A stretch of 64,000 bases of DNA, taken from assembly GCA_944327285.1 (NCBI GenBank), contig CALVHG010000002.1:29577-93576 (forward strand), in the 5' to 3' direction. The notes under the pieces were generated by a model, which had not been told where the DNA came from, ran no database searches, and was given only the letters and a program-made list of their open reading frames with translations. This DNA is from an uncultured Desulfovibrio sp. (GTDB lineage: Bacteria; Desulfobacterota; Desulfovibrionia; Desulfovibrionales; Desulfovibrionaceae). The translations under genes were made by a program, and so were the position numbers. Below, piece by piece: positions 5,185 to 57,107 of this stretch; position 1 is the first letter of the stretch; every line of letters starts with the position of its first letter.

Positions 5185-6375
5185 ATGCAGATTTCCGAAC
5201 GCCTGCGCAGCATCAAGCCGTCGTTGACGCTCAGCGTCAACAGCCGTGCCCTGGAGCTGAAGTCGCAGGGAGTTGCCGTTACCAGTCTGGCCGTGGGGGA
5301 ACCGGATTTCCCTACTCCGAAGCATATCTGCGAGGCCGCCAAGGCCGCCATTGACGATAATTTCTGCCGCTATACGGCCGTTCCCGGCATTCCCGAACTG
5401 CGCGCGGCGGCCGGCGCGTACTTTGAGCGCGTTTACGGCGTCCCCGTGCCCGGCGAATCCATTGTCATTGGCGCGGGTGGCAAGCATTGTCTGTATAATT
5501 TTATGCAGGCAACCATTAATCCCGGTGACGAAGTTCTCATTCCGGCGCCCTACTGGCTGAGCTATCCCGACATGGTCATGCTGGCCGGGGGCGTGCCTGT
5601 GCCGGTGGCCGCTTCGGCGGAACAGCATTTCAAGGTGACGCCGGCCATGCTGGATGCGCATTGCGGCCCCCGTACCCGCCTGCTGATTCTCAATTCCCCC
5701 AGCAATCCCACGGGGGCTGTGTATACCCGCGAAGAGTTCGACGCTATCATGGACTGGGCCATGAAGCGCGGTATTTTCGTGTTGTCCGACGAAATTTATG
5801 ATCAGCTGGTGTTTGCCCCCGCGGTCATGAGCAGCGCCATTTCCTGGTTCGCCCGGTATCCCGAACAGGTGGCCGTGCTGAACGGATTGTCCAAGAGCTT
5901 TGCCATGACCGGCTGGCGCGTAGGTTTTCTGGCGGCGCATCCCGAACTCATCAAAAAGATTTCTTCCATGCAGGGGCACAGCACGTCCAACATCTGCTCC
6001 ATTGCGCAGAAGGCCGCGCTGGCGGCGCTGACGGGCCCCATGGATTGTTTGGACGAAATGCGGGCCGCCTTCCAGCGGCGGCGCGATATGGCCATGGATA
6101 TCATCGCGTCGTGGCCCTGGGCTGTCTGCCCTCGTCCTGACGGCGCTTTTTATCTTTTTGTTGATGTGCATCGCTGCTATGGCGGCTCGGTGGCAAATTC
6201 CACGGAATTGTGCACGCGCTTGCTGGATGAGGCGCATGTGGCGCTGGTGCCGGGCGCGGCCTTTGGCGATGATCGGTGCATCCGCTTTTCTTATGCCGTG
6301 GCGGACGACGTGCTGCGCGACGCGCTGGAGCGCGTGGGCGCGGTGCTGAAGACGCTTGCGGCGGAAGCGCGATAG
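5185..6375 (+). CDS. Pyridoxal-phosphate aminotransferase, aspartate aminotransferase type (class I, fold type I)
   Basis: 396 residues from ATG 5185, which has AAGGAG 8 bases upstream; the upstream extension to 5122 has no family content. The family landmarks are NSPSNPTGAVY (contacts the cofactor ring and substrate carboxylate), the SDEIYDQL stretch, the Schiff-base lysine Lys237 in LSKSFAMTGWRVG, and the C-terminal IRFSYA arginine that binds the alpha-carboxylate. It most resembles bacterial class Ib aspartate/prephenate aminotransferases. Substrate preference cannot be read from sequence. The stop codon TAG (6373-6375) is also the first three bases of a family A repeat. Confidence 0.92.
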   Translation: MQISERLRSIKPSLTLSVNSRALELKSQGVAVTSLAVGEPDFPTPKHICEAAKAAIDDNFCRYTAVPGIPELRAAAGAYFERVYGVPVPGESIVIGAGGKHCLYNFMQATINPGDEVLIPAPYWLSYPDMVMLAGGVPVPVAASAEQHFKVTPAMLDAHCGPRTRLLILNSPSNPTGAVYTREEFDAIMDWAMKRGIFVLSDEIYDQLVFAPAVMSSAISWFARYPEQVAVLNGLSKSFAMTGWRVGFLAAHPELIKKISSMQGHSTSNICSIAQKAALAALTGPMDCLDEMRAAFQRRRDMAMDIIASWPWAVCPRPDGAFYLFVDVHRCYGGSVANSTELCTRLLDEAHVALVPGAAFGDDRCIRFSYAVADDVLRDALERVGAVLKTLAAEAR

Positions 6376-6519
6376 CGTTTTGCCTTTGAGGAAGGCAAAA
6401 CGCGAGGCGGCTGCACAGCGCCGCCCGACCCAAAGCGTGCGGAAAAACCGCGTTTTTTCCGTGAAACGACAGGCCGTATGGTTTGAAATGCAAAGCATTT
6501 CAAACTGAAAATGTTCTAG
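6373..6519 (-). repeat. Family A repeat, full copy supplying a stop codon
   Basis: Its TAG is the aminotransferase stop. The tail hairpin reads GCGTTTTGCC / GGCAAAACGC, a fully paired variant of the GCGTTTCACC / GGTGAAACGC arms seen elsewhere. Confidence 0.92.
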
Positions 6520-6605
6520 TCTGTCTGGAGACGGAGCGGTTGCGCCCTGCGCGCAGCCGCTCCTGCGTGCCCCTGATGGGGAAAAGCAAACAACCGGGAG
6601 CAATC

Positions 6606-7772
6606 TTGCTGCGAAGAGTTTTGGCGGGAGTCGGTCTTGCCCTGGGGATGCTTGTCAGTCCCTGCGGCGTGTCAGCGGCTGTTTCGGTCGGATCGGCCGG
6701 GAATGTCGCGTCTCCTCCAACGGCCGGAGAGCCGGGTAAAGCCCCCGGCATAAATGAAAGCTCCTCTTCCCTGGGGCTGGACAATGCCCTGGGAGAACCC
6801 CGCGTCTCGCGGCGCATGACAAAAATTTACGGCGGCCCCGTGACTATTACGCCGCCGACTATCACCATGCCTGTGGTGCAGACGCCGCAGGTCAGCGCGC
6901 CGCGCGTCCCCTCGCCCGCCGCCCCGCAGATCGCGGAACCGGTGCCCGGCACAACCGGCAGAATTGCCGCCGTGGCGGCAGCCAGAGAATGGCGACAGCT
7001 GGAGCCTGGGCTGGAATACGGCGAGTTCCCCTTTATTGCCACCCCTTACGAAGCGCCTACCGGCGAGGCTCGTCCTCCGCGGGCAACGCTGCGCGTTGTG
7101 CGTATTGATCCCGCTCAGTTTGAATTTGTTCTCTGCGCGGCCTCGGATGGCGGCGTTCCCCTGCCGCTTGGGCGCTGGGCAGACCATGAGCATCTGGTGG
7201 CGGCCATTAACGCCAGCATGTATCTGCCGGATGGGCGCACAAGCACCGGCTATCTTCGCGAAGGCGACCATGTGAACAATGCCCGCCACGGCGGGCGACT
7301 CGGAGCGTATTTTCTGGCCGGGCCCGACGCCCTGGCGCGGGCGGCGGGAGCCCCGCCAGCGCTCGTGCTGGACGGTACGCGCATCAAGATGGATGTCTTC
7401 GAGCGGCATTACCGGCTGGTTGCTCAGAATTTCCGTATGATCGGCGAGGATCGGCGTATCGTCTGGGCTTCGGACAGCCGCCCGGTTGCTGTCGCCGCCG
7501 TGGCGCAGACTGGCGACGGGCGCATCCTTTTTCTGCACTGCCGCCAACCCGTGGAACCCTATGTGCTGGCGCAGCGCCTGCTGAATTTGCCGCTGGATGT
7601 GCGCACCGTCATGTACGTGGAGGGCGGAGCGCAGGCCGGTCTGCTGCTGCGTTCCGGGGGAATGCTGATGGAGCTTTATGGCCGCAGCGCCGCCGCTATT
7701 TTGCTGGGCGATCCCCCCGCGCCGTCCCTGCCCAATGTGCTGGGTATTCGTCGGCGGGCCGCGACAAGATAG
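6606..7772 (+). CDS. Exported phosphodiester glycosidase-like (NAGPA/DUF2233) protein
   Basis: The TTG at 6606 has GGGAG five bases upstream and gives 388 residues with a clean signal peptide (LLRRVLAGVGLALGML...GVSA-A). The ATG at 6576 is in frame but has no ribosome site, so the TTG was preferred. After a Pro/Thr-rich linker (to about residue 120) comes a domain resembling the phosphodiester glycosidase / NAGPA family: RVVRIDPAQFEF, AINASMYLPDG, a central Gly-rich strand, and a late MYVEGGAQAGLLLRSGG segment. The family hydrolyses or binds sugar phosphodiesters in cell envelopes; substrate here is unknown. It sits alone between a family A repeat and the desulfoferrodoxin leader. Confidence 0.78.
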   Translation: MLRRVLAGVGLALGMLVSPCGVSAAVSVGSAGNVASPPTAGEPGKAPGINESSSSLGLDNALGEPRVSRRMTKIYGGPVTITPPTITMPVVQTPQVSAPRVPSPAAPQIAEPVPGTTGRIAAVAAAREWRQLEPGLEYGEFPFIATPYEAPTGEARPPRATLRVVRIDPAQFEFVLCAASDGGVPLPLGRWADHEHLVAAINASMYLPDGRTSTGYLREGDHVNNARHGGRLGAYFLAGPDALARAAGAPPALVLDGTRIKMDVFERHYRLVAQNFRMIGEDRRIVWASDSRPVAVAAVAQTGDGRILFLHCRQPVEPYVLAQRLLNLPLDVRTVMYVEGGAQAGLLLRSGGMLMELYGRSAAAILLGDPPAPSLPNVLGIRRRAATR

Positions 7773-7795
7773 CGGGAAAAATGATCGGAGCCCCC

Positions 7796-7823
7796 TTGAC
7801 TTATTGCACAGGATTCCTAATTC
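7796..7823 (+). promoter_or_regulatory. Possible promoter and operator of the superoxide reductase cluster
   Basis: TTGACT, then 16 bases, then TAATTC. The -10 region overlaps an imperfect dyad, CAGGATT-cct-AATTCTG, that could bind a regulator. It leaves a leader of about 140 nt before the desulfoferrodoxin start. This is pattern only. Confidence 0.4.
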
Positions 7824-7971
7824 TGGGCAGGACCGGAAAGTTCCTGGATTTTTCTGGTCCGAGGACGGAAAACTCCCTCCTCCAAAACGCCCTTTTGGGC
7901 TCATTAAGACTGACAGCCGCACTGTGCGGCATGACGGCAATGCCTGCCGATAAACAAAGAGAGGTATTCTC

Positions 7972-8352: not shown

Positions 8353-8427
8353 CGGGCTTCTTCCCCTTTTCGCGGGGAGTCCGGCCGGCAGGTCTGGCAT
8401 CAGGAAGAAAAATTCTGTATATATACC

Positions 8428-8447
8428 GGCAGCGGTTTGTCGCTGCC
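8428..8447 (+). promoter_or_regulatory. Small hairpin between desulfoferrodoxin and rubredoxin
   Basis: GGCAGCG and CGCTGCC pair around a GTTTGT loop, 38 bp before the rubredoxin start. There is no T-run, so it may be a processing or partial attenuation site rather than a terminator. Confidence 0.4.
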
Positions 8448-8484
8448 CTGAAAAAATGACAGTTTCACCCCCAAGGAGTGACAC

Positions 8485-8703: not shown

Positions 8704-9909
8704 ATGCAGTCTGTTGAACTCAAAAAAGATATCTACTGGGTGGGGTGCGTCGATTACGACCATCGCGATTTCCACGGCTACTCCACCTCGCCCGAAGGCA
8801 CCACCTATAATGCCTATGTGATCAAGGACGAAAAGAACGTTCTTTTCGACACGGTTTCTCCGGGCTGCGTCGGGACGCTGCTGTGCCGTCTGGCCAAGAT
8901 CATGGACCCTGAGAGCATTGATTACCTGGTGATCAACCACCTTGAGCTGGACCATGCCGGTTCGCTGGCCGAAGTGGTCGAGCGCTGCAAGCCTGAAAAG
9001 ATTTTCTGCTCCACGCTGGGGCTCAAGTCCATGCAGGGCTACTTCCCCCAGTGCAAGGACTGGCCCGTGCAGGCCGTGAAGAGCGGCGACAGCATCTCCA
9101 TCGGCAAGCGCACCATCGTCTTCCAGGAAACCCGCATGCTGCACTGGCCCGACAGCATGGTGTCCTACATCCCCGAAGACAAGCTGCTGATCAGCCAGGA
9201 TGCCTTCGGTCAGAACATCGCGGGCAGCTGCCGCTTTGTGGACGAGCATGATCCCGCCGATTTCGAGTTCCGCGTGCGCGAATATTACAATAACATCGTG
9301 CTGCCCTACTCGCCGCAGGTGCTGGCTGCTCTGCCCATTGTGGAATCGTTGGATATCGACATGATCGCCCCCGATCATGGTCTGATTCATCGCGGCAAGG
9401 ATTCCGTGAAGCGCATTGTGGACCTGTATCGTGAAATGGCCGAACAGAAGCCCCGTAAGCGCGCGCTGATTTTCTACGACACCATGTGGCATTCCACCGA
9501 AAAGATGGCCTATGCCGCCTGCTCCGGTCTGGAAGAACTGGGTATTCCTACCCGCATCATGTCTGTGAAGCAGAACCATCACAGCACCATCATGACCGAA
9601 CTGGGACAGTGCGGCGCGGTGCTGGCCGGTTCGCCCACGCATAACAACGGCATTCTGCCGCTGGTCGCCGCGCAGCTGACCTACATCAAGGGCCTGCGTC
9701 CGAAGAATCGCGTGGCGGGCGCCTTTGGTTCCTTCGGCTGGTCCGGCGAAAGCGCCAAGTGCATTCAGAGCACCTTTGAGGAAATGGGCTGGGAACTGCC
9801 CGCCGCTCCTGTGCGCTGCTGCTGGCGTCCCGGTCACGACGGCCTGAAGGCCGCGCATGATCTTGGCCGCGCCGTGGGCGAGGCTCTGCTGAAGAAGATC
9901 GAAGGCTAG
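8704..9909 (+). CDS. roo: Rubredoxin:oxygen oxidoreductase (flavodiiron protein)
   Basis: 401 residues from ATG 8704 (GGAG upstream); the extension to 8656 was dropped. It reduces oxygen to water (and possibly NO) with rubredoxin electrons. The N-terminal metallo-beta-lactamase domain has the di-iron ligands His79, Glu81, Asp83 and His84 in NHLELDHAGS, and further ligands around residues 148, 167 and 228 (LHWPDSM, SQDAFGQ, DHGLIHR). The C-terminal flavodoxin domain binds FMN (IFYDTMWHSTEKMA, GSPTHNNGILP, FGSFGWSGE). The stop TAG is the first triplet of a family A repeat. Confidence 0.98.
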   Translation: MQSVELKKDIYWVGCVDYDHRDFHGYSTSPEGTTYNAYVIKDEKNVLFDTVSPGCVGTLLCRLAKIMDPESIDYLVINHLELDHAGSLAEVVERCKPEKIFCSTLGLKSMQGYFPQCKDWPVQAVKSGDSISIGKRTIVFQETRMLHWPDSMVSYIPEDKLLISQDAFGQNIAGSCRFVDEHDPADFEFRVREYYNNIVLPYSPQVLAALPIVESLDIDMIAPDHGLIHRGKDSVKRIVDLYREMAEQKPRKRALIFYDTMWHSTEKMAYAACSGLEELGIPTRIMSVKQNHHSTIMTELGQCGAVLAGSPTHNNGILPLVAAQLTYIKGLRPKNRVAGAFGSFGWSGESAKCIQSTFEEMGWELPAAPVRCCWRPGHDGLKAAHDLGRAVGEALLKKIEG

Positions 9910-10053
9910 AGCGTTTCACCTTTGAAAAAGGTGCAACGCGAGGCGGCGGCACAGCGCCGCCCGGCCCAAATTGAGCGGAAAAACTGCGCTTTTCCCGCGA
10001 AACGACAGGCCGTATGGTTTGAAATGCGAAGCGTTTCAAACTGAAAATGCTCT
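9907..10053 (-). repeat. Family A repeat, full copy supplying a stop codon
   Basis: Begins TAGAGCGTTTCACC with the roo stop codon and ends ACTGAAAATGCTCTG. It is followed by an independent terminator hairpin at 10107. Confidence 0.92.
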
Positions 10054-10106
10054 GGTCTGTCTGATTTCCGGGGAAGGCCCCCGGCGTTCCCCCGGAAGAG
10101 AAAAAG

Positions 10107-10146: not shown

Positions 10147-10216
10147 CATTCGCTGCGATGTCCGAAAATTTTACAGAATCAGACTTTGCTCCGGAAAACG
10201 CGCAGGCAGGCGCGCG

Positions 10217-15605: not shown

Positions 15606-16469
15606 CTAGGACGAGGGTTTGTCGGGAGCAAAATGCGAGGTTGTCCAGGTCAGGGCCAGCACGTAGACGGCGGCGAAAATGCTGATGGCGGTATCCCAGG
15701 GGGCCGTGGCCGAGAGGGAGAGGCGCATGAGCAGGGTGCCGATCACGAAGCCGGAGTTGCGGAACACGGCGTGGAAGCTGGGCATGTAGCGCTGGGAGAT
15801 GAGCACCAGCGCGATGTCGGCAAAGACAAGCACTGTGTAGATGGTTTCAAAGAAGCGCGGCGTCTGCCCCAGCATGAAGTGCAGATAGGCGTCGCGGATG
15901 CCGATGCCTACAAAGACGCAGAAAAGCAGCAGGGCCAGCAGCTTCTTGCTCATGACAAAGCGCATGCGGAGTTCCGGGGCCTGCAGGAAGCGCAGGCTGC
16001 CGCCGATACGGTTGTAGATGCCCAGGGCGACGAAGATGATCAGCGCCCCGGATGCCGATGTGGCGATATGGACGACGGGCTCGATGGCCGTTCCGATGCT
16101 GATGGGTTCGGGCAGGTGAGAAAGTTCCTTGAAGGCGTTGCGCAGGAGAATGAGCGCCAGAATTTCAAACTGCTTGCCTACGGCGCGGGAAAACGAACTC
16201 GATATGGAGAAGATGAGACTTATGACCTCCATAATCAGAATGAGCGTAAAGGCCAGCTGAATAGCGTCAAAATGGTTGGTGGGGGCCAGGTGCGCCCAGG
16301 GTTCGGGAAGCCAGCCCTGCCTGTTCATTTCGATGCCGATCATTCCGACGAGGTAGATGACGAGCGTAAGGAAGGCCATTCGCTTCTGAGAGGTGGGGCT
16401 TTCCCAGAACTGATGGAGCCAGTCGAAAGCGTCCGTCAGCGGCTGCATGCGGTCTATGAGTTGTGGCAT
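15606..16469 (-). CDS. Multi-pass membrane protein of unknown function
   Basis: 287 residues from ATG 16469, preceded by CGGAGA; the longer frame to 16580 reads into upstream regulatory sequence. About seven hydrophobic segments are visible (AFLTLVIYLVGMIGIE; AIQLAFTLILIMEVISLIF; the GALIIFVALGIY segment; LLALLLFCVFVGIG; the IYTVLVFADIALVLIS segment; FVIGTLLMRLSL; AISIFAAVYVLAL). No transport or enzymatic motif is recognised. It is divergent from the FAD/Fe-S oxidoreductase gene, with 289 bp between starts. The stop TAG is part of a family A tail remnant. Confidence 0.75.
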   Translation of the reverse strand: MPQLIDRMQPLTDAFDWLHQFWESPTSQKRMAFLTLVIYLVGMIGIEMNRQGWLPEPWAHLAPTNHFDAIQLAFTLILIMEVISLIFSISSSFSRAVGKQFEILALILLRNAFKELSHLPEPISIGTAIEPVVHIATSASGALIIFVALGIYNRIGGSLRFLQAPELRMRFVMSKKLLALLLFCVFVGIGIRDAYLHFMLGQTPRFFETIYTVLVFADIALVLISQRYMPSFHAVFRNSGFVIGTLLMRLSLSATAPWDTAISIFAAVYVLALTWTTSHFAPDKPSS

Positions 16470-25289: not shown

Positions 25290-25436
25290 TGGAGCATTCT
25301 AGTTTGAGACGCGCGTTGCGTTTCAAACCATACGGCCTGTCGTTTCCGGAAAAAGCGCGGTTTTTCCGCTTTCTTCAGGCCGGGCGGCGCTGTGCGGGCG
25401 CCTCGCGTTTTACCTTTTTGAAAGATAAATGCCTTA
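25290..25436 (+). repeat. Family A repeat between hisI and hisG
   Basis: Runs from GGAGCATTCTAG to the TTA that is the complement of the hisI stop codon TAA. It lies inside what would otherwise be a compact hisI-hisG operon, leaving 292 bp between the genes. Confidence 0.85.
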
Positions 25437-25832
25437 TTTGCCGTAGACCGCAGCCGGATCAAAGACCTGCGGCGAGCACATGTGTTCCTCGCCGTTTTTC
25501 CATTCGCGGAAAAAGCAGGAGCGCCGTCCCGTATGGCAGGCAGCCCCGCCAATTTGCTCTATCAAAAGCAGAATCGTGTCGGCGTCGCAATCAAGGCGTA
25601 TGGCCTGAACCTTCTGGACATTGCCCGATGTGCCGCCCTTATGCCAGAGTTCCTGCCGGCTGCGGCTCCAGTAATGGGCCTCGCCCGTGCGCAAGGTCGC
25701 GTTCCAGGCGTTTTCATCCATATAGGCGAGCATCAGCACTTCCCCGGTGGCGGCATCCTGCGCAATGGCAGGGACCAGGCCTTTGGAGAAATCAGGGGCA
25801 AAGCTCGGCGGCGGCAAGGGGGCGTGAGACAC
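25434..25832 (-). CDS. hisI: Phosphoribosyl-AMP cyclohydrolase
   Basis: 132 residues from GTG 25832, which has GGAGG five bases upstream. A TTG 15 bases further up is in frame but lacks a ribosome site. The enzyme opens the purine ring of phosphoribosyl-AMP in histidine synthesis. Typical features are [29 protein letters not shown], the metal-binding DCDADTIL, and [10 protein letters not shown] with the zinc cysteines. The pyrophosphohydrolase (HisE) domain is absent, so this is the stand-alone HisI. The stop codon is the outer triplet of the family A repeat. Confidence 0.95.
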
Positions 25833-26279
25833 GGGGTCCTCCGGCAAGAGATAGTTCTGGTGATCGTGGTGTGCGTCCGAACAGGGCTGTCCGAGGCGTC
25901 AATGCCTTGGCAGCCTAGCGCCAAAGCCCGGCCAACGCAAGGCGCGAAGGGGCAAAATACCTGCGCGGGGCGCCGTTGCGGGCAGCGATAGCGTCGCTTC
26001 CGCCGCCGACGGGCAAGGCTTTACACAAGGGAGAGAACTCGCTAGAACTTGTCTAGAAGTTGTTTCGTCAGCTCCCTGCCTGATGCAGTTGCCGATGGCG
26101 GCCTTCCCCGGCTTTCCGGCGGCGCGGCGTCCGCTGTGTCGCCTGATCTTTTTGCTGCCTGTCTTCTTTTTTGTCCCAGGGCTGCCGTCTGTCTGCCGCG
26201 ACATTCAGACATGCGGGACGGGCAACACAGAACTTTTTCAATCCCGTCGGCGTGTTTGTCCCGGCGGAGCGGATATTCC
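25833..26279. other. Divergent regulatory gap hisI / helicase
   Basis: About 450 bp without a convincing gene. Near 26040-26062 it holds two nearly identical 9-base units, TAGAACTTG and TAGAAGTTG, which together also form an AACTT...AAGTT dyad. The rest may be a long 5' leader of the helicase mRNA. Confidence 0.45.
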
Positions 26280-28652: not shown

Positions 28653-28679
28653 TGCCGGCGACGACATCGGATTGCGAAA

Positions 28680-28824
28680 TAAGCGTTTTACCTTTGCAAA
28701 AGGTAAAACGCGAGGCGGCGGTACAGCGCCGCCCGGCCGAAGCGAGCGGGAAAACGCGCTCTTTCCGCGAAACGACAGGCCGTATAGTTTGAAACGCAAC
28801 GCGTTTCAAACTGAAAATGCTCTA
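28680..28824 (-). repeat. Family A repeat, full copy
   Basis: The tail hairpin is GCGTTTTACC / GGTAAAACGC and the head hairpin GTTTGAAACGC / GCGTTTCAAAC, both perfectly paired and both different from the commonest sequence. It lies between the hypothetical gene and ribF. Confidence 0.9.
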
Positions 28825-28914: not shown

Positions 28915-29850
28915 ATGATGAAGCAGACGAATTTTCCCACGGAACAGATGCCGGTCATTGACTCGGAACGCGGATGCTGTGTCACCATCGGCAACTTTGA
29001 CGGTGTGCACAAAGGGCATCAGACTCTGATTTCCCATGCGCTGGATTTTGCCCGTAAGGTGGGAATGGCCTGCGTTATCGTGACGTTCTGGCCTCATCCG
29101 CGTCTGGTGCTGGGTAAGGAGCATGTCCCGCTGATGACCCGCGCCGCGCGTCTGGAAGCGCTGCGGGCATTGCAACCCGACCACGTCTGGGAGATTCCCT
29201 TTAATCGCCTGGTTGCGGGACTCTCCCCTGAGGATTTCGTCAAACAGTATCTGGTGCCGCTTTCCATGCGACGGCTGGTGGTGGGCCATGACTTCTCGCT
29301 GGGCAAGGGGCGCGCAGGCCAGCCCTGCATCCTTCAGAGCCTGGGCCGCGCCTACGGCTACACTATGGAACAGCTTGCGCCCGTGATGGAAGGCGGGAGC
29401 GTTGTCAGCTCCAGCCGTATTCGCCATTTTGTGGAACAGGGCGGCGTGGAGCTGGCGGCTCGTATGCTGGGGCATTATCATTTCTGCGACGGCGAAGTTA
29501 TCCGCGGCGAAGGGCGCGGGGCCGGACTGGGCTTCCCCACGGCCAACCTGGCCCTGCCGGAAACGCTGCTGCCGCCTTCGGGGGTGTATGCTTCCCTGCT
29601 GGAAGTGAATGGCAAACGTCATGCCGCCGTGACTAATATCGGCAATAATCCTACCTTCGGCGGACAGAACATCGGCGTGGAAACCTTTGTGCTGGATGCT
29701 TCCGGCGATATGGATCTCTACGGCAAGCAGGTTCGCGTTCGCTTTGTGGAACAGCTGCGCCGGGAAAAACGTTTTTCCGGGCCGGAAGAACTGGCGGCCC
29801 AGATTGCTCGCGATGTGGAACAGGCTCGCGGCATTCTGGCGGGTATCTAA
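28915..29850 (+). CDS. ribF: Bifunctional riboflavin kinase / FAD synthetase
   Basis: 311 residues. It converts riboflavin to FMN and then FAD. The N-terminal adenylyltransferase domain has TIGNFDGVHKGHQ (24-36, nucleotidyl-transferase HxGH type), the VGHDFSLGKGRAG loop and SSSRIR. The C-terminal kinase domain has GEGRGAGLGFPTANL, PPSGVYAS, the TNIGNNPTFGG motif and a late VRFVEQLRREKRF. Two adjacent ATGs (28915, 28918) are possible starts. FAD and FMN serve several enzymes here (roo, the FAD/Fe-S enzyme, nitroreductase). The stop TAA is the first triplet of a truncated family A repeat. Confidence 0.96.
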   Translation: MMKQTNFPTEQMPVIDSERGCCVTIGNFDGVHKGHQTLISHALDFARKVGMACVIVTFWPHPRLVLGKEHVPLMTRAARLEALRALQPDHVWEIPFNRLVAGLSPEDFVKQYLVPLSMRRLVVGHDFSLGKGRAGQPCILQSLGRAYGYTMEQLAPVMEGGSVVSSSRIRHFVEQGGVELAARMLGHYHFCDGEVIRGEGRGAGLGFPTANLALPETLLPPSGVYASLLEVNGKRHAAVTNIGNNPTFGGQNIGVETFVLDASGDMDLYGKQVRVRFVEQLRREKRFSGPEELAAQIARDVEQARGILAGI

Positions 29851-29899
29851 AGCATTTTCAGTTTGAAATGCCTCGCGTTTCAAACCATACGGCCTGTTA
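29848..29899 (+). repeat. Family A repeat, truncated (head only)
   Basis: TAAAGCATTTTCAG through CATACGGCCTGT, then the match stops. The TAA is the ribF stop. The break occurs inside a 13-base inverted repeat (29891-29903 with 30102-30114). Confidence 0.88.
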
Positions 29900-30114
29900 A
29901 CACTATTCGTAAGTTGTTTTGGGGGGAAGGGAACCCCCTCTGCTAGCGCGAGAGGTGTTTCCCTTCCCCCCAAGCCCCCCATCCCTTCCCCAGCGCGCTT
30001 TTATCGGGGAAAAGTCAGGAATATGAGGCGACCCTGCCACCAAAGACAAGTGGCACGTGTGCAGCCTGTTTATTTTGTCTATTGAAATTATTGTAAAATT
30101 TGTGTTAACAGGCC
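29891..30114. repeat. Segment bounded by a 13-bp perfect inverted repeat
   Basis: GGCCTGTTAACAC at 29891-29903 and GTGTTAACAGGCC at 30102-30114 enclose 198 bp. Inside are a complete reversed family B copy and an AT-richer stretch (30020-30100). The segment lies between a truncated and a complete family A copy, and could be an inserted or rearranged unit. Confidence 0.6.
29921..30005 (-). repeat. Family B repeat, full copy
   Basis: GGGGGGAAGGGAAC ... GTTTCCCTTCCCCCC hairpin with a CTGCTAGCGCGAG loop, then CCCCCCATCCC and CAGCGCGCTTTTATC. Confidence 0.9.
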
Positions 30115-37047: not shown

Positions 37048-37195
37048 TAGAGCGTTTCAACTTTGAAAAAGGTGAAACGCGAGGCGGCGGCACAGCGCCG
37101 CCCGGCCCAAAGTGAGCGGAAAAACCGCGCTTTTTCCGCGAAACGACAGGCCGTATGGTTTGGAATGCGAAGCATTTCAAACTGAAAATGCTCTA
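37048..37195 (-). repeat. Family A repeat, full copy
   Basis: TAGAGCGTTTCAAC to TGAAAATGCTCTA, close to the commonest sequence. It lies between ddl and the terminator at 37208. Confidence 0.93.
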
Positions 37196-40193: not shown

Positions 40194-41302
40194 AAACTTC
40201 GTCCATTTTGCTTGCGCTGGCCCTTGTGGGCGTGCTGGGAAGCGGTTGCAGCACGTCTTCCGCGCCTGTTGATGATATCGCGGCCCCCGGCGCGCTGTTG
40301 ACGGAACCGCCCGTCCGTACGACGCCGGAAGGCGGCGACGTGCAGGGACGGGATCTGCCCGGCGTCAATGTTGACCCCGCCGTGCTGCGGAAGCCCGCCC
40401 CCGCGGCCGCTCCGCCTGCCGCGGCTCCGGCAATAAAGCCGGTAACGCCGCGGGCGGCTGCGCCCGCCTCCGCCCCGTGGGGGGAACTGGCGCGGCGTCT
40501 GGCGGCGGATGGCGTTTCCGGGCCGCAGGTGGATGCTCTGCTGGCGACCCTGCCCGCTACGCCCACGCAATCGCCTATGGGGCGCAAGATCAACGCGTTG
40601 TATCAGCGTCGTTTTTTCCCCAAGCCCCCTTCGACGGCTCCGGCCGCCCGCTACTATAAGGGCGTGCTGACGGAGGCCAACGCGCAGGCCTGCCGGGATT
40701 TCCTCGCGGCCAATGCCGCGGCCTTTGATGTGGCGGAGCGCCGCTATCAGGTGCCGCGCAATATTGCCGTGGCCCTGCTTTTTGTGGAAACCCGTCTCGG
40801 TAAGGTGCTGGCCGACGTTAAGGAAAACGCCTTCTACACCCTGGCCAGCATGTCCGTGACGCGCACGCCGGAAAGCATTTCCGGCTGGCTGCCTAAGATG
40901 AAGGATTATGAAAAGCACCGCGACTGGTTCGCGCAGACCATGCCCAAGCGGGCTGATTGGGCCTATAAGGAAACCAAGGCCCTTGTGATTTACATGGCGC
41001 GCGAAGGCATCCGGCCCGATCAGCTGCCCAGCTCCGTTTATGGCGCTGTGGGGCTGTGCCAGTTCATGCCGTCCAATATCGACGTATACGGCGCGGACGG
41101 CAACAATGACGGGCGCGTTAATCTCTTTGAAATCCCCGATGCCGTGGCAAGCCTTGCCAATTACCTTTATCGCCACGGCTGGCGCGCGGGCATCGACCGC
41201 TCCCGTCAGCACAAGCTGCTCATGGCCTACAACCACTCCTCTGTTTACGCCAATACCATTCTGGCCCTGAGCGATATGGTGGAAGGCCGGACCGTGGCTT
41301 AG
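40190..41302 (+). CDS. Lytic murein transglycosylase, MltB-like lipoprotein
   Basis: 370 residues with a lipoprotein signal peptide (LALALVGVLGSGC; Cys about residue 20). A Pro/Ala-rich linker runs to about 100, and the catalytic domain follows: VPRNIAVALLFVETRLG with the likely catalytic Glu near residue 200, YTLASMSVT, GAVGLCQFMPSNI and NDGRVNLFEIPDAVASLANYL, as in MltB/SLT family 3. It cleaves peptidoglycan glycan strands to anhydro-muropeptides at the outer membrane. It overlaps the repressor-like gene, which suggests that regulator controls envelope turnover. The stop TAG starts a family A repeat. Confidence 0.92.
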   Translation: MKTSSILLALALVGVLGSGCSTSSAPVDDIAAPGALLTEPPVRTTPEGGDVQGRDLPGVNVDPAVLRKPAPAAAPPAAAPAIKPVTPRAAAPASAPWGELARRLAADGVSGPQVDALLATLPATPTQSPMGRKINALYQRRFFPKPPSTAPAARYYKGVLTEANAQACRDFLAANAAAFDVAERRYQVPRNIAVALLFVETRLGKVLADVKENAFYTLASMSVTRTPESISGWLPKMKDYEKHRDWFAQTMPKRADWAYKETKALVIYMAREGIRPDQLPSSVYGAVGLCQFMPSNIDVYGADGNNDGRVNLFEIPDAVASLANYLYRHGWRAGIDRSRQHKLLMAYNHSSVYANTILALSDMVEGRTVA

Positions 41303-41447
41303 AGCGCTTCAACTTTGAAAAAGGTGAAACGCGAGGCGGCGGCACAGCGCCGCCCGGCCCAAAGTGAGCGGAAAAACCGCGTTTTTTCCGCGAAACGACA
41401 GGCCGTATGGTTTGAAATACGAAGCATTTCAAACTGAAAATGCTCCA
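41300..41447 (-). repeat. Family A repeat, full copy supplying a stop codon
   Basis: TAGAGCGCTTCAAC to TGAAAATGCTCCA. The TAG ends the transglycosylase gene. The head hairpin is GTTTGAAATAC / GCATTTCAAAC. Confidence 0.93.
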
Positions 41448-42293: not shown

Positions 42294-42332
42294 GTGCCGC
42301 CGGGTGCGAGAAGCGCCTGGCGGCACTTTCTT
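42294..42332 (+). terminator. Second terminator hairpin after ferredoxin
   Basis: GTGCCGCC pairs with GGCGGCAC, followed by TTTCTT. The T-run merges into the TTAGAGC start of the next family A repeat. Confidence 0.75.
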
Positions 42333-42478
42333 AGAGCGTTTTGCCAGTGAAAAAGCAAAGCGCGAGGCGGCGGAACAGCGTCGCCCGGCCCGGAGTGAGC
42401 GGAAAAAACGCGTGTTTGCCGCGAAATGACAGGCCGTATGGTTTGAAATGCGAAGCGTTTCAAACTGAAAATGCTCCA
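42332..42478 (-). repeat. Family A repeat, first of a tandem pair
   Basis: TAGAGCGTTTTGCC to TGAAAATGCTCCA. The next copy begins at the same base where this one ends, sharing the junction CTCCAGAGC. Confidence 0.93.
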
Positions 42479-42623
42479 GAGCGTTTTGCCTTTGGAAAAG
42501 GCAAAGCGCGAGGCGGCGGCGCAGCGCCGCCCGGCCCAAAGCGAGCGGAAAAACCGCGTTTTTTCGCGAAGCGACAGGCCGTATGGTTTGAAATGCGAAG
42601 CGTTTCAAACTGAAAATGCTCTA
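42478..42623 (-). repeat. Family A repeat, second of a tandem pair
   Basis: AGAGCGTTTTGCC to TGAAAATGCTCTA. Same orientation as its neighbour but with a different tail hairpin loop and central arms, so it is not a recent duplication of it. Confidence 0.93.
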
Positions 42624-44542: not shown

Positions 44543-44689
44543 TAGAGTGTTTCAACTTTGAAAAAGGTGAAACGCGAGGCGGCGGCACAGCGCCGCTCGG
44601 CCCAAAGTGAGCGGAAAAACCGCGTTTTTTCGCGCAACGACAGGTCGTATGGTTTGAAACGCGCAGCGTTTCAAACTGAAAATGCTCTA
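44543..44689 (-). repeat. Family A repeat, full copy
   Basis: TAGAGTGTTTCAAC to TGAAAATGCTCTA. It lies beyond the terminator in the convergent gap between the TPR gene and the MFS exporter. Confidence 0.93.
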
Positions 44690-49856: not shown

Positions 49857-50194
49857 TGCGTGATCCTCTTATAAAGGCTTACGGGCATGTCTACCCTGCC
49901 GACGCCGCGCTGGAAGATGCGCTGCGCGTCGCGCTGGCGGACGCCCTGCCCGATAATGATGACATTCCCCTGCTGGAGCGCGACGGCGACATGTTGCGTA
50001 TTTCCTTTGAAGGAAGCTATTTCCCCGAAGATGAAGTGGTTGCCGCCCTGCGCGCGGCCACAGGCATGCCGCAGGGCAAGCTGGACGTGCTTGATCTGGA
50101 AAACTGGCGCATGACGCGCCATGCCTTTCGTGACGGCGTGCTGCATTCCAGCGCCGCGCCGCTCAACAACGTGCTGGACTATTCCGGGCATTAG
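49856..50194 (+). CDS. Small hypothetical protein
   Basis: 112 residues, acidic and soluble, with a compact alpha/beta pattern (IPLLERDGDMLRISFEG, EDEVVAALRAATGMPQGKLDV). No motif is recognised. The start codon overlaps the stop of the exported TPR-like protein (TGATG). Its stop TAG is the first triplet of a family A repeat. Confidence 0.75.
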   Translation: MRDPLIKAYGHVYPADAALEDALRVALADALPDNDDIPLLERDGDMLRISFEGSYFPEDEVVAALRAATGMPQGKLDVLDLENWRMTRHAFRDGVLHSSAAPLNNVLDYSGH

Positions 50195-50310
50195 AGCGTT
50201 TCACCTTTGAAAAAGGCGAAACGCGAGGCGGCGGCACAGCGCCGCCCGGCCCAAAGTGAGCGGAAAAAACCGCTTTTTTCCCGGAAACGACAGGCCGTAT
50301 GGTTTGAAAA
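50192..50310 (-). repeat. Family A repeat, copy lacking the head end
   Basis: TAGAGCGTTTCACC to CGTATGGTTTGAAA; the last 28-30 bases of the element are missing. The TAG ends the small hypothetical gene. It lies 50 bp before argB. Confidence 0.9.
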
Positions 50311-50359
50311 GTGATGTTACTTTGTTTCATTCGTTGCTGACATACAGGGAGAGAAGACT

Positions 50360-51142
50360 ATGAAGCAGGAAACCGTCGTCGTGAAATTTGGCGGACACGC
50401 TATGGACAAGGAAGATCTGTGCGCGGCCTTTGCCGGCGATGTGGCGCGTTTGCAGCAGGACGGCGAGAAGCTGGTCGTGGTGCATGGCGGCGGCCCGCAG
50501 ATCGGCGCGTTGTTGCAGCGGCTGCATATTGAAAACCGTTTCGAGAAGGGGCTGCGCGTGACGGACGAAGCCACTATGGAAGCCGTGGAAATGGTGCTGT
50601 GCGGCCAGGTTAACAAGGATGTGGTCGCCCGCCTTGCGGCCGCCGGTTGCCGCGCCGCCGGCGTCAGCGGGCGCGACGGCGGCCTGCTGCGCGCTCGGAT
50701 TAAGGACGCCGCGCTGGGGCTGGTGGGCGATGTGACGGAGGTGGACGCCTCTCTGCTGGCCTGCCTGCTTGACGGCGTATTTGTGCCCGTAGTTGCGCCG
50801 GTGGCATCCGGCCCGCAGGGGCAGGCGCTCAATGTCAATGCCGATACGGCCGCGGGGGCTGTGGCCGGCGCGTTGCGCGCCGATTGTTTTGTGCTCATCT
50901 CTGACGTGCCGGGCGTGCTCGACGGCGACAAACGACTTTTGCCGCGCCTTAATCGGGCGGAGGTGCAGCGCCTTATTGAAAGCGACGTCATCAACGGCGG
51001 CATGATTCCCAAGGTGCAGTCCTGCCTGCACGCGCTGGATCGGGGCTGCGGGCGTTCCCTTATCCTGGATGGACGGCAACCCTCCAGCCTGCTGCGCTTC
51101 CTGCGTGACGGCGAGGCCCTGGGAACTGTCATCGAAAACTGA
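50360..51142 (+). CDS. argB: Acetylglutamate kinase
   Basis: 260 residues. It phosphorylates N-acetylglutamate in arginine synthesis. The amino-acid-kinase features are VVKFGGHAM (usually KYGGNAM, so Asn is His here), VVHGGGPQI, GLRVTDEATMEAVEMVL, NVNADTAAG, LISDVPGVL and INGGMIPK. The N-terminal arginine-sensing helix of feedback-inhibited forms is absent, so inhibition by arginine is not expected. GGGAGAG precedes the ATG. The SRP RNA gene follows directly. Confidence 0.95.
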   Translation: MKQETVVVKFGGHAMDKEDLCAAFAGDVARLQQDGEKLVVVHGGGPQIGALLQRLHIENRFEKGLRVTDEATMEAVEMVLCGQVNKDVVARLAAAGCRAAGVSGRDGGLLRARIKDAALGLVGDVTEVDASLLACLLDGVFVPVVAPVASGPQGQALNVNADTAAGAVAGALRADCFVLISDVPGVLDGDKRLLPRLNRAEVQRLIESDVINGGMIPKVQSCLHALDRGCGRSLILDGRQPSSLLRFLRDGEALGTVIEN

Positions 51143-51188: not shown

Positions 51189-51273
51189 GGCCAAGCCGGG
51201 CGGCGGCCGCACTGCCAACCCCGTCAGGTTCGAAAGAAAGCAGCGGTAACAGATGTTGCCGGGTGCCCGGCCC
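51189..51273 (+). ncRNA. ffs: Signal recognition particle RNA (small bacterial type)
   Basis: About 85 nt. The closing helix is GCCGGGC (51195-51201) with GCCCGGC (51265-51271). The apical domain carries the SRP signature: GTCAGG on the 5' side and AGCAGC on the 3' side of the symmetric loop, with TTC-GAAA-GAA at the tip where E. coli has TCC-GGAA-GGA, so the tip pairs change together and the tetraloop stays GNRA. It binds Ffh for cotranslational membrane targeting. A promoter precedes it and a strong terminator follows at 51275. Ends are estimates, good to a few bases. Confidence 0.9.
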
Positions 51274-51274
51274 A

Positions 51275-51315
51275 CGGAAACCGCGAACAGCAATGTTCGC
51301 GGTTTCCGCGTTTTC
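51275..51315 (+). terminator. Intrinsic terminator of the SRP RNA
   Basis: CGGAAACCGCGAACA pairs perfectly with TGTTCGCGGTTTCCG around GCAA, then CGTTTT. Confidence 0.95.
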
Positions 51316-54148: not shown

Positions 54149-55045
54149 ATGCTTTTCGGCAAATACCACATCGTCATTTTCAGGGAAGGCTCCAGCGGCA
54201 GCCGCAATATGCGCATGCGGGGCTGGTTCTGCGTTCTTGTCGTGCTCGTCTTCACGGCGGTGCTGGCCTGCAATGTCTGGCTCTGGCGCGAATGGCTGCA
54301 AAATCGTCATCTGCGTTCGGAGGTGGAGGCCGGCAACCGTCAGCTTGAAGAGCAGCGCCGTCGGCTTAGCGGCATCAGCGGACGCATTGACGAGATTTCC
54401 GAAGATCTGGAGCGTGTTCGCAACTTTGACGCCAAATTGCGCATCATGATGAATATGGAAAAGGACGTGCCTGAGACCAGCGGTCCCGCGGCAACGTCCT
54501 TTGCGCGAACCTATGTTCCTATGCACCGCCAGGAACTGGCAGTGCGCAAGATTCAGGAATTTCTCTCCTCCCTTCAGGAAAGCGCCCGGCTGGAAGAGGT
54601 TGTGCAGCAGGATCTGCTGCGCGCTCTGCGGGAACACAAGGACACGCTGGCGTCGCTGCCGACCATCTGGCCTACCAACGGCTTTATTTCCTCGTCATTC
54701 GGAAGTCGCAGCTCTCCCTTCGGGGGCGGGCGGGTACAGTTCCACAAGGGCATGGATATCAGCGCCCGCAGCGGAACGCCCGTGGTTGCCACGGCGGAAG
54801 GCACGGTGCAGCAGGCCGGACGCGACGGCGCGTATGGCAATAGCGTGGAAGTGAATCACGGTTCGGGTATTGTCACCAAGTACGCCCATATGCAGCGCTT
54901 TGTCGTGGAGCAGGGGCAATGGGTGCGGCGCGGGCAGGTCGTGGGCTATGTGGGGATGACCGGCCGCGCGACAGGGCCGCATCTGCACTACGAAGTGCGG
55001 CTCAACGGAGTGCCCGTCAATCCCATGCGCTATATTCTGGATTAG
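54149..55045 (+). CDS. Membrane-anchored M23 family metallopeptidase
   Basis: 298 residues. One membrane segment at about 26-46 (FCVLVVLVFTAVLACNVWLW) is followed by a coiled coil (about 50-95) and then the peptidase M23/LytM domain: FGSRSSPFGGG, the zinc ligands in FHKGMDISA, GNSVEVNHGSG, YAHMQRF and GPHLHYEVRLNG. All His/Asp ligands are present, so it should be an active endopeptidase cutting peptidoglycan cross-bridges, or an activator as in EnvC/NlpD. The stop TAG starts a family A repeat. Confidence 0.93.
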   Translation: MLFGKYHIVIFREGSSGSRNMRMRGWFCVLVVLVFTAVLACNVWLWREWLQNRHLRSEVEAGNRQLEEQRRRLSGISGRIDEISEDLERVRNFDAKLRIMMNMEKDVPETSGPAATSFARTYVPMHRQELAVRKIQEFLSSLQESARLEEVVQQDLLRALREHKDTLASLPTIWPTNGFISSSFGSRSSPFGGGRVQFHKGMDISARSGTPVVATAEGTVQQAGRDGAYGNSVEVNHGSGIVTKYAHMQRFVVEQGQWVRRGQVVGYVGMTGRATGPHLHYEVRLNGVPVNPMRYILD

Positions 55046-55186
55046 ACGTTTTACCTTTGAAAAAGGCAGAACGCGAGACGGCGCATAGCGCCGTCCGGCC
55101 CAAAGCGAGCGGAAAAACCGCGTTGTTCCGCAAAACGACAGGCCGTATGGTTTGAAACGCACAGTGTTTAAACTGAAAATGCTCCA
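55043..55186 (-). repeat. Family A repeat, full copy supplying a stop codon
   Basis: TAGACGTTTTACC to TGAAAATGCTCCA. The TAG ends the M23 peptidase gene. The central G/C hairpin is shortened (GACGGCGCATAGCGCCGTC), still perfectly paired. Confidence 0.9.
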
Positions 55187-55268
55187 GGCTCCGGATGTCT
55201 CAAACCCTGCCGGTGATCTGTGCGGCTGAGACGGAAGCCTGTTACGGGCAATAGTTTTTTCAGAAAAT

Positions 55269-55312
55269 GCGACGTGCTGCGAGGGTGTCCGCCGCAGGAC
55301 GTCGCGTTTTTT
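55269..55312 (+). terminator. Intrinsic terminator between M23 peptidase and nitroreductase
   Basis: GCGACGT pairs with ACGTCGC and CTGCG with CGCAG, with one G/G mismatch between, then GTTTTTT. Confidence 0.85.
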
Positions 55313-55373
55313 ATGCGGCGTGTCGGAAAGGAAACAGGCTTTTCCGATGCCTGCGCTGTAAAGGAGGTTTGCG

Positions 55374-55934
55374 ATGGATGCTCTGCAATGTATTGCCGGA
55401 CGGCGTTCCTGTCGTTCCTATGAGGAACGGCCCGTGCCTGCGGCGATGATTGACGAATTGCTGCGCCTTGGCACAAAGGCCGCGACCGGTTCGGGCATGC
55501 AGCCCTGGGGCTTTGCGGTGCTGGAGGGGCAGGAGGCTCTTCGCGTCTTGTCTGACGAAATTAAGGCCTGGCTGCTGCCCCGGCTGAAGGAAGAGCCCTG
55601 GCTGGCGCAGTACGAGGAGTGGCTGCGTAAGGATTCCTACAATATCTTCTACAATGCGCCTGCGCTGGTGGCGGTGTACGGCGATCCCGCGTCGCATTGG
55701 CACGTCTATGACGCCAGCTTGTGCGCGGCCAACATCATGCTGGCTGCGCATGCGCAGGGTCTCGGAACCTGTTGGATCGGTTTTGCCGAATCCTTCATGA
55801 ACAGGAGCGATATCAAGTCCCGCTATCATGTGCCGGAAGATTTCCGGCTGATCAGCGTGCTGACGCTCGGTTTTGCGCGCGGGCATCTGCCGGAGGCGGA
55901 GCGCCGGACGCCGCGCGTCTTTTATCGGGGATAA
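55374..55934 (+). CDS. Nitroreductase family flavoprotein
   Basis: 186 residues; AAGGAGG precedes the ATG. The FMN-binding features of the nitroreductase fold are present: RRSCRSYEERPVP at the start, a TGSGMQPWGFAVLEG segment, SLCAANIMLAAHAQGLGTCWIG and a late TLGFARG. Such enzymes reduce nitro or quinone groups, or other substrates, with NAD(P)H; the natural substrate here is unknown. It is convergent with the EamA transporter gene, only 14 bp apart. Confidence 0.93.
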   Translation: MDALQCIAGRRSCRSYEERPVPAAMIDELLRLGTKAATGSGMQPWGFAVLEGQEALRVLSDEIKAWLLPRLKEEPWLAQYEEWLRKDSYNIFYNAPALVAVYGDPASHWHVYDASLCAANIMLAAHAQGLGTCWIGFAESFMNRSDIKSRYHVPEDFRLISVLTLGFARGHLPEAERRTPRVFYRG

Positions 55935-55948
55935 CGCGGCGCTCGGCG

Positions 55949-56779
55949 TCAGGCCAGTCTGAGCAGCATGCCGCCGCAGGCGACGAGCACAACGGCCAGC
56001 GCCCGCAGGGGGGAGAAGCGTTCGCCAAGAAAGGCGATGGCCAGCAGCATGCCGAAGATGACGGACGTTTCGCGCAGGGCAGCCACCAGAGCAATGGGCG
56101 CCTGCGTCATGGCCCAGATGGCGATGCCGTAGGACGCCAGACCGCATACGCCGCCGGACAGGCCGGGCAGGGCCCGGCCGCGCAGGTAGCGCAGATACTC
56201 TTTGCCGTCTCTGCACAGGATGAGAATGTGCAGCGGGAAGATATTGAGAACGAAGATCCAGCAGGCATAGCCGACGGCGTCGCCGCTGTGCTGTGCGCCA
56301 AAGCCGTCGGCCAGCGTATAGCCCATGATGACAATCGAGGTGCGCAGCGAAAGCAGCAGGCCGCGTCTGGTCGGCGGGTGATGTCCCAGCGTCAGGCAGC
56401 CGATGCCCGCGCAGATGGTCAGCAGTCCGGCCCAGCCTGCCAGCGAGAGCGGCGCTCCCCAGACCGTCATGAACAGCGCTGTGAGCAGCGGGGCGGTGCC
56501 GCGCATGATGGTGTAGCCCACGGAAAGGTCTACCTCGCGATAAGCGGCCGCAATGCAGATATAATACGTAAGATGACAGAGGCAGGACAGCGCCAGCAGG
56601 GGCCAGGCCTCCGGCGCGGGAAAGGACACGAACGGCACGAGGAAGAGCGCGCCCAGCCCGCCGCCGAGACAGTTCATGGCCGATTCGTAGAGCTTGTTTT
56701 GCCCGCCTTTAACGATGCTGTTCCAGGTGGCGTGCAGCAGCGCCGCCAGCAGCACTGGAATGATAAGAGAAAGGGACAC
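55949..56779 (-). CDS. EamA/DMT family transporter
   Basis: 276 residues from a GTG at 56779 with GGAGG about 10 bases upstream. Ten hydrophobic segments make two EamA halves (first: LHATWNSIVKGGQNKLY; second: GVCGLASYGIAIWAMTQAPIALVAALRETSVIFGMLLAIAFLGERFS). The second-half ending ETSVIFG...FLGERFSPLR is the classic DMT signature. The substrate is unknown (metabolite or amino acid export is typical). Confidence 0.9.
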   Translation of the reverse strand: MSLSLIIPVLLAALLHATWNSIVKGGQNKLYESAMNCLGGGLGALFLVPFVSFPAPEAWPLLALSCLCHLTYYICIAAAYREVDLSVGYTIMRGTAPLLTALFMTVWGAPLSLAGWAGLLTICAGIGCLTLGHHPPTRRGLLLSLRTSIVIMGYTLADGFGAQHSGDAVGYACWIFVLNIFPLHILILCRDGKEYLRYLRGRALPGLSGGVCGLASYGIAIWAMTQAPIALVAALRETSVIFGMLLAIAFLGERFSPLRALAVVLVACGGMLLRLA

Positions 56780-56984
56780 GACGGAAGGCCTCCGGGGTAT
56801 CGGCGCGGAAACAGCGTCGCCACGGCGTTGGCGTCCGGCGACGCCTTTGCCGCAGCCGCGTCAGCGCGAACCATTTTCTATAAAAAAGGGAAAGCTCCCT
56901 GATTTCTCCACAGAAAAGAGCTTTCCCTTGAAAAAGGCGCGTTGTCAGGCCGGGTATGGTTTTTGTCAGGTCTGGTATCGACCT

Positions 56985-57107
56985 TAGAGCATTTTGCCAG
57001 CAAAAAGAGCAAGACGCGAGGCGTCCAGCGCCGTCTGGCCCGAAGTGAGCGGAAAAACAGCGTTTTTTCGCAAAACGACAGGCCGTATGGTAACTGAAAA
57101 TGCTCTA
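56985..57107 (-). repeat. Family A repeat, copy lacking the head hairpin, supplying a stop codon
   Basis: TAGAGCATTTTGCC to ACTGAAAATGCTCTA, but the 22-base palindrome TTTGAAATGC...CAAA near the head is gone (CGTATGGTAACTG). The last triplet, CTA, is the complement of the fliM stop codon. Confidence 0.9.

Follow-up and report, generated by a model that had tools for sequence, protein, structure and literature searches.

A putative IS630-type miniature element supplies the stop codons of many genes in an uncultured Desulfovibrio

The closest described relatives of the element reported here are of two kinds: miniature inverted-repeat transposable elements (MITEs) of the IS630 type, and the BOX repeats of Streptococcus pneumoniae, at which 36 coding sequences (CDSs) end with the repeat encoding the stop and no strong evidence of truncation (PMC3049150). 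Our statements on this and the other cited papers apply to excerpts of them. In the same species RUP, a 107-bp repeat present in 108 to 110 copies, is described as inserting in or near insertion sequence (IS) elements (PMC2229807, PMC3049150). The subject of this report is a 148-bp repeat, here called family A, in a 64,000-nucleotide stretch of DNA from an uncultured gut Desulfovibrio sp. (the window; GCA_944327285.1, genome G000, contig CALVHG010000002.1 or C2, positions 29577-93576). Like RUP, whose counterpart is IS630-Spn1, it is short and non-coding, has TA ends matching those of an IS630-family IS in the same genome and lies in TA-containing targets (PMC2229807, PMC3049150). Unlike RUP, it is present in 230 copies in a quarter of the genome, with 48 of them in stop codons. 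BOX repeats also supply stops and are the closest printed precedent that we found (PMC3049150). They are, however, modular (boxA-boxB-boxC), with ISSpn2 proposed as the mobiliser, whereas family A is a single 148-bp unit, and the excerpted account of BOX does not mention TA-to-TAG rebuilding, a stop-containing target motif or element-free stops (PMC3049150). Correia, ERIC/RU-1 and QMITE resemble family A as small TA-ended bacterial MITEs with folded transcripts and some fusions to gene 3' ends, but the 3' fusions described in the excerpts extend the protein or remove the normal stop, whereas family A leaves the protein end as it is (PMC2229807, PMC2759123, PMC5896051). In the open-access literature we came across no account of IS630 elements that target stop codons, subscription papers being outside the search, and in the excerpted 2024 review of prokaryotic MITEs the words "stop" and "IS630" do not occur (PMC10969869). 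As far as these searches reach, the element-free stops, the explanation by target choice, the indications that borrowed stops are under selection and the number of genes concerned are new.

The consensus of family A carries terminal inverted repeats TAGAGC/GCTCTA, as expected of an IS630-family MITE. The first-pass annotation, made from the window sequence, held that the terminal triplet of the element is the stop codon of eight neighbouring genes, and in all eight the stop codon is indeed the TA(G/A) at one end of a family A copy. On the plus strand, the aminotransferase (called 5185-6375) ends at TAG 6373-6375, where a copy with a shortened terminus (TAGCGTTT; 6373-6518, +) begins; roo (called 8704-9909) ends at TAG 9907-9909 of the copy 9907-10054 (+); the transglycosylase (called 40208-41302) ends at TAG 41300-41302 of the copy 41300-41447 (+), which is followed on its far side by CAATGTTCTGTGGGG; a 112-residue gene ends at TAG 50192-50194 of a 3'-truncated copy (model positions 1-125; 50192-50316, +, far end approximate); and the M23 peptidase gene (54149-55045) ends at TAG 55043-55045 of the copy 55043-55186 (+). 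The minus-strand gene fliM (57105-58085) receives TAG 57105-57107 from the right end of the copy 56985-57107 (+). In the remaining two genes the stop is TAA: that of hisI (25434-25847, -; TAA 25434-25436) lies in a decayed copy (model positions 9-145; 25290-25436, -), and that of ribF (called 28918-29850, +; TAA 29848-29850) in a remnant (model positions 99-145; 29848-29897, -, far end approximate). Pfam supports the identities of the aminotransferase, the roo-type protein (ODP and flavodoxin domains), HisI, RibF, the SLT_2 transglycosylase, the M23 peptidase and FliM, and no Pfam family matched the 112-residue product of the gene ending at 50192. A tail remnant had also been proposed at 15606 (15606-15620, -, extent uncertain; TAGAGCGGTTTACC), giving TAG to a gene called at 15606-16448 (-). 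The site does read TAGAGC, but only about 14 nucleotides resemble family A before another repeat begins, so that the assignment is plausible rather than proven.

To place these genes in the genome as a whole (3.33 Mb in 179 contigs), a profile built from the family A copies of the window was run over the window and 40 stretches of 20 kb, each taken from the start of a contig (contigs 1 and 3-41), a non-random sample of 864 kb (26%). It found 230 copies. Our own dicodon caller placed 687 genes in this sample, of which 16 had no called stop and were dropped, and 48 of the remaining 671 (about 7%) end exactly at a family A terminus. This automated count includes seven of the eight named window genes; hisI is uncounted because the terminus of its copy is too diverged. 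Where a gene stops inside a copy whose near end is present, the stop is in the frame of the terminal stop in 48 cases (42 at offset 0 and six at offset 1-2, with small terminal indels), and the single exception reads past the terminus and stops at offset 11 (locus L048). Four further genes end 3 or 6 nucleotides before a copy. Among the 221 copies located at stops or in intergenic DNA, the 48 at stops far exceed the 8.2% expected if intergenic and stop TAs were equally likely to be used (binomial P 4e-10); the first-pass annotation had proposed to test whether stop insertions exceed chance, and against even use of TAs they do. In three relatives (G020, G094 and G022, the last being Candidatus Desulfovibrio intestinigallinarum, a near relative of G000), the copies supplying a stop were 10 of 43 in G022, 10 of 26 in G020 and 2 of 9 in G094, in stretches that were picked as orthologous to the window and are not independent of it. 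Also in G022, one gene has its stop within a copy, at offset 101. TAG is the commonest stop (240 of 623) even where no family A copy ends the gene, and the TAG usage of the genome is therefore not attributed to the element.

On comparison of the copies' ends, of a transposase gene with matching ends, of element-free stops, of protein ends, of the target preference of surviving copies and of the retention of the near stop, we consider it highly probable that family A is a miniature element moved in trans by an IS630/Tc1-mariner-type transposase, that insertion at TA within YTAR (Y, pyrimidine; R, purine) rebuilds stop codons and that copies are purged from genes. Insertion would duplicate the TA and leave termini that read TAGAGC inward from both sides. 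A TAA or TAG stop would be a target when a pyrimidine precedes it, and coding DNA is poor in the preferred CTAG and CTAA. A gene hit in its stop would read TA followed by the G of the element, that is, TAG, with its protein unchanged, while the old TAA or TAG would be left at the far end and decay. Copies landing inside genes would be lost, survivors would be found in stops and intergenic DNA, and the element-borne stop would then be held by selection. What stands is that mobile repeats supply the stops of many genes without altering the proteins.

The partner anticipated by the first-pass annotation, an IS630-type transposase with GAGC-ended inverted repeats, is present in the same genome, in an autonomous IS630 element whose TAGAGC ends match those of family A. 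Its gene (G000:C4:36771-37709) encodes 313 residues with helix-turn-helix domains and a DDE_3 domain (PF13358, E 1.4e-33), and by position the element spans approximately C4:36759-37751 (about 993 bp). One end has its first 20 bases (TAGAGCGTTTCACCTTTGAA) in common with the left end of family A, the other end (TAGAGCAATTCAACTTTGA) is similar, and a family A copy abuts the right end of the element with a TA in common. We infer that this transposase moves family A. It is the one close transposase gene found in G000, where contig C140 holds a second, partial DDE_3 match; in G022 the gene is broken into two frames, at a locus (L121) identical over 3,423 bp (100%) to record DXFI01000071.1. Matches at E <=1e-30 occur in nine of the 79 genomes of the genus, G000 included, and the sole sequence match in the PDB is Sleeping Beauty (5cr4, E 8e-8).

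The protein ends were compared with those of orthologues in other genomes, excluding orthologues that end in TAGAGC and keeping some that end at remnants or other repeats. Of 26 orthologue pairs, which represent the 14 of the 48 element-ended genes with an orthologue in the fetched stretches, 25 end within five residues of each other and 20 end exactly together. The corresponding figures for control genes are 160 and 119 of 176 pairs. The expectation that insertion leaves the protein unchanged is thus borne out. An insertion at any in-frame TA, such as that of a tyrosine codon, would yield the same TAG, and the copies might then be cutting genes short with a premature stop; one of the 26 pairs, and two of 12 pairs from Desulfovibrio sp. 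ZJ369 (G002), in which the other ten lie within five residues, are indeed more than five residues shorter than the orthologue. We consider truncation very improbable as the general explanation, and rejected it, on the grounds of the orthologue C-termini and of relatives that lack family A and stop at the same codon in roo, the transglycosylase, the aminotransferase and fliM. Moreover, of 38 stop copies 37 have a purine directly after the far TA, where the remainder of an original TAA or TAG would be expected.

Element-free stops containing TA, which the first-pass annotation had proposed to look for, were found at four of the named genes. The transglycosylase gene ends GTGGCT TAA TGTTTTGTGGG in G020 (TAATGTTTTGTGGG), and G022 has TAAT at a contig end; in the window it reads GTGGCT TAG, then the element, then CAATGTTCTGTGGG, with CAAT on the far side in place of the TAAT of the relatives. 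Read simply, the original TA would have been doubled, the near stop would have become TAG and the far TA would later have become CA. For roo an element-free TAA is present in G022, G020 and G094, and G094 also has an element-free TAA at fliM and an element-free TAG at the aminotransferase; at these three genes the gene side alone aligns. Elsewhere the relatives carry repeats as well. The aminotransferase stop is occupied by family A in G022 and by another repeat starting TAGGGCCTG in G020; at hisI both G022 and G020 carry family A in the corresponding position and G094 carries none; the ribF stop is likewise occupied in G020, by a full copy; the M23 peptidase gene has family A at the same stop in G020, a remnant in G022 and an element-free TGA in G094; and fliM has a remnant in G022 and, in G020, a family A copy that lies on the same stop with reversed orientation, for which inversion of a resident copy could be an alternative source. 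For hisI, ribF, the M23 peptidase, fliM and the aminotransferase, one relative or more has family A or a remnant of it on the corresponding stop, as would also be seen if the repeats were ancestral at these gene ends and had spread by recombination without insertion. The element-free orthologous sites at roo, the transglycosylase and two non-stop copies of the window (28679 and 37048) leave that account with hardly any credibility, and it was rejected.

The target preference of the copies accounts for much of their distribution. Tests of targets and far ends were confined to the 137 copies with both ends (38 of the 48 stop copies and 99 non-stop intergenic copies), the 93 of the 230 copies without one or both ends being left out. 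The target is YTAR in 67 of the 99 non-stop copies, compared with 710 of 4,940 empty intergenic TAs, and the ratio of filled to empty intergenic targets is 17:127 for CTAG, 36:290 for CTAA/TTAG, 14:293 for TTAA and 1:632 for GTAA/TTAC. Family A copies thereby show the preference for CTAG known of IS630. IS630 of Shigella sonnei is said to prefer TA within CTAG, as reportedly found by Tenzen and Ohtsubo in 1991; unlike it, family A has a broader taste, YTAR, in which CTAG and CTAA/TTAG are used about equally and TTAA less. This preference would be set at integration. Either strand of YTAR contains a TAA or TAG, and the preferred sites are scarce in coding DNA: among 14,272 coding TAs there are 55 empty CTAG and 225 empty CTAA/TTAG sites, whereas in the same sample 81 CTAG and 83 CTAA/TTAG lie at ordinary stop codons. 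When the four-base target was matched, the odds ratio for stops fell from 4.3 to 1.75 (1.1 to 2.8, bootstrap over 41 stretches). At intergenic per-target rates 25.1 stop insertions would be expected, and 38 both-ended ones were observed (Poisson P 0.01); inside genes, 166 copies would be expected at those rates, and one lies wholly and eight lie partly within a gene, a deficit that purging would explain. Target choice and loss from genes explain most of the stop excess and leave a modest excess at stops. The first-pass annotation had pictured stop codons as safe landing sites. The excess that this implies is real, but its reason has to be restated as mostly the YTAR preference together with the loss of copies from genes.

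Several observations weigh against the mechanism proposed above. The transposase is linked to family A by its matching ends, as read from the sequence, and the odds ratio of 1.75 persists once targets are matched. The purine after the far TA is partly confounded by YTAR, as it is also found at 164 of 197 non-stop ends (Fisher P 0.02). Within G000, G022 and G020, TGA is the orthologue's stop in five of the 26 element-ended pairs, compared with eight of 113 for ordinary TAA/TAG genes. Finally, the flanks of 168 both-ended copies were joined around a single TA and sought in the other three genomes. From 17 junction-spanning alignments we set aside five head-to-tail arrays, three poor alignments and the fliM copy, where the relatives hold remnants, which left eight independent two-sided empty sites. 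TA is present at two of them (window 41300 and L094 1863); at the other six the nearest relative has a different dinucleotide, namely TT at L081 6571, TG at L084 8219, CG at L089 6775, TC at L097 5345, TC at window 28679 and CA at window 37048. Ordinary intergenic TAs of the window are kept at 150 of 194 positions in G022, 134 of 185 in G020 and 79 of 131 in G094, and intergenic YTARs at 21 of 27, 16 of 28 and 13 of 19, respectively; since 60-77% of ordinary intergenic TAs are retained, two of eight is low. At the non-TA sites the TA could have arisen in the filled lineage before insertion, or the transposase could accept other dinucleotides. Insertion at TA with duplication, as first proposed, has in its favour the transglycosylase site and the TA at 142 of 197 ends of non-stop copies, and against it the six of eight empty sites without a TA, the very sign that the first-pass annotation had named as telling against it. 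The mechanism is well supported in its fit to the comparison, except that a TA target is not borne out at most of the two-sided empty sites.

One response to these sites is that no TA is needed in the target, the TA coming with the element or replacing a dinucleotide, so that any stop, TGA included, would be rebuilt as TAG. At the six sites the gap is two bases wide, the size expected of a two-base target, and a kinase gene ended by a family A copy that is confined to G022 (L084 8219; TAG followed by the element) ends in TGA in its three orthologues (window 50360-51142 in G000, and G020 and G094). However, orthologues of element-ended genes that themselves lack a TAGAGC end have TAA or TAG in 54 of 69 pairs, which matches orthologues of ordinary TAA/TAG genes (241 of 297) and is far from those of TGA genes (56 of 228); within G000, G022 and G020 the corresponding figures are 21 of 26, 105 of 113 and 6 of 86, with a mild excess of TGA there. 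The transglycosylase site, where TAA became TAG...CAA, also speaks for TA, as does ISY100 of the same family, for which 34 of 39 products were insertions into TA with the normal duplication and three more were insertions into TA with one end shortened (PMC2170065). At stops the picture favours a TA target, and we regard a TA-free target as quite improbable. That TA is always the target is nevertheless what the proposed mechanism presumes, and this universal form has to be corrected along with the reason for the excess; the main idea of the first-pass annotation holds. The residual 1.75-fold use of stop TAs over intergenic TAs of the same four-base type (1.1 to 2.8) could instead mean that stops actively attract the transposase or its target complex, for example by way of terminating ribosomes or transcript ends. 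This excess is small, and loss of copies from intergenic promoters would lower the rate with which stops are compared, so that active attraction also appears improbable.

Under the proposed mechanism the gene would come to depend on the near end of the copy. The stop at the near end has been kept in 48 of 49 cases, whereas the far end is still a stop in 19 of 38 stop copies, and 140 of 198 ends of non-stop copies retain one (Fisher P 7e-8 and 9e-6, respectively). This is the retention that selection on an element-borne stop predicts, in a count that is blind to genes that lost the stop and read through the whole copy. Separately, the inward stop has been lost more often at the far ends of stop copies (19 of 38) than at non-stop ends (58 of 198; P 0.02), although stop copies are no more diverged overall. 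Divergence from the consensus is equal in the two groups, with a median of 7.6% in 34 stop and 95 non-stop copies (P 0.82), and the idea that stop copies are older was dropped for this reason.

The predicted RNA of the consensus forms four hairpins closed by the ends (-75.4 kcal/mol, z -7.8). Its paired columns co-vary, with 146 cells changed on both sides compared with a mean of 63 and a maximum of 78 in 200 shuffles; the double changes in the 129 copies fall mainly at pairs 11-27, 12-26 and 119-127, in a test that imposed the single-sequence consensus fold on the alignment and treated copies that are not independent. RNAalifold on the MAFFT alignment of the 129 copies gave a structure of four pairs only. 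Copies tend to point in the direction of the genes: 61 with and 23 against among the 84 non-stop copies between co-directional genes, and 35 with and 13 against among stop copies. The fold and the orientation bias hint at an effect at the RNA level, and they would be expected if copies were kept at gene ends for a job, for example transcription termination or protection of the mRNA 3' end, with the stop incidental. Yet the same orientation bias in stop and non-stop copies means that it does not explain the position at the stop, and transcripts of bacterial MITEs are described as highly base-paired in general (PMC2229807). The roo insertion is absent from all three relatives and that of the transglycosylase from the two with the same tail, and the fliM copies of G000 and G020 have opposite orientations. 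A function of this kind seems to us an unlikely reason for the stop insertions, though less so than the alternatives above.

A comparable situation exists in Desulfovibrio sp. ZJ369, of which we sampled ten stretches, six chosen for transposase matches on their contigs and four from contig C30 for fliM. In this sample 25 of 137 genes (18%) end in TAGAGC, where a 1 in 64 chance of AGC after TAG would predict 0.9. The repeats have the same ends as family A and different cores, and the transposase is 54% identical over residues 82-309. In genome G025, 5 of 169 genes end in TAGAGC. Nine further genomes of the genus were sampled as a low-copy comparison and gave 12 of 340; several of those 12 stops are followed by hairpin-like repeats, and the nine genomes are therefore not clean negative controls. 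Beyond the genus, the ends of IS630 relatives were determined for 30 of 80 transposase loci from several phyla together with L122, whose row spans the IS and the neighbouring family A copy; 11 of the 31 had no clear ends. Among the 20 with clear ends, 15 have TAG ends, of which 13 lie in YTAR, whereas none of the three with TAT or TAC ends does, and both of those with TAA ends lie in TTAA. At two TAG-ended IS loci the terminal TAG is the stop of a long adjoining open frame (844 codons at L176 and 445 at L133), and L148 is ambiguous. A broken IS630 copy of Ca. D. intestinigallinarum (L126, DXFI01000071.1, just before 2950) also appears to give TAG to a transporter-like frame.

We tentatively suggest, as a possibility that we hold with some doubt, that in this IS630 branch the termini and the target preference together amount to a harm-avoiding design, in which a stop can be entered in either orientation and is rebuilt, and that the design recurs across lineages. 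With TAG termini and a YTAR preference both new junctions are again YTAR, so that a stop could be reused repeatedly and by different families. The case for recurrence is that 25 of the 137 ZJ369 genes have TAGAGC stops with different repeats and that 13 of the 15 TAG-ended IS630 relatives lie in YTAR. If the suggestion is correct, mobile DNA is the source of a considerable part of the stop codons in such genomes. The finding itself offers a testable reason why some small bacterial repeats crowd gene ends: the target contains a stop, and the element brings the replacement. The element-borne stops of G000 look selected, and stops of this origin must be allowed for when repeats, stop-codon usage and 3' ends are annotated in genomes of this kind.

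A second repeat family (TAGGGCCTGTTAACAC..., often followed by GGGGGGAAGGGAAACCCC) likewise starts with TAG, which serves as the stop codon of some genes. It occupies the aminotransferase stop of G020, where G022 has family A (L097, from 3799 onward), and is also found at window 29885-30110, L120 105, L106 5311 and L102 18569.

Four other family A copies of the window do not lie at stops. Those at 28679-28824 (+) and 37048-37195 (+) are absent from G022, with TC and CA, respectively, in place of TA, and two others are at 1451-1598 (-) and 44543-44689 (+). A bacterial small signal recognition particle RNA gene lies at window 51192-51277 (+). It was the sole match in an Rfam scan of the whole window at gathering thresholds, in which family A matched no curated family. 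Two copies lie head to tail at 42332-42623 (+) with one terminal dinucleotide in common (CA at the junction). Five such head-to-tail pairs were found (this one and those at L035, L042, L101 and L032), and four share a single terminal dinucleotide, as expected if the junction itself is a target.

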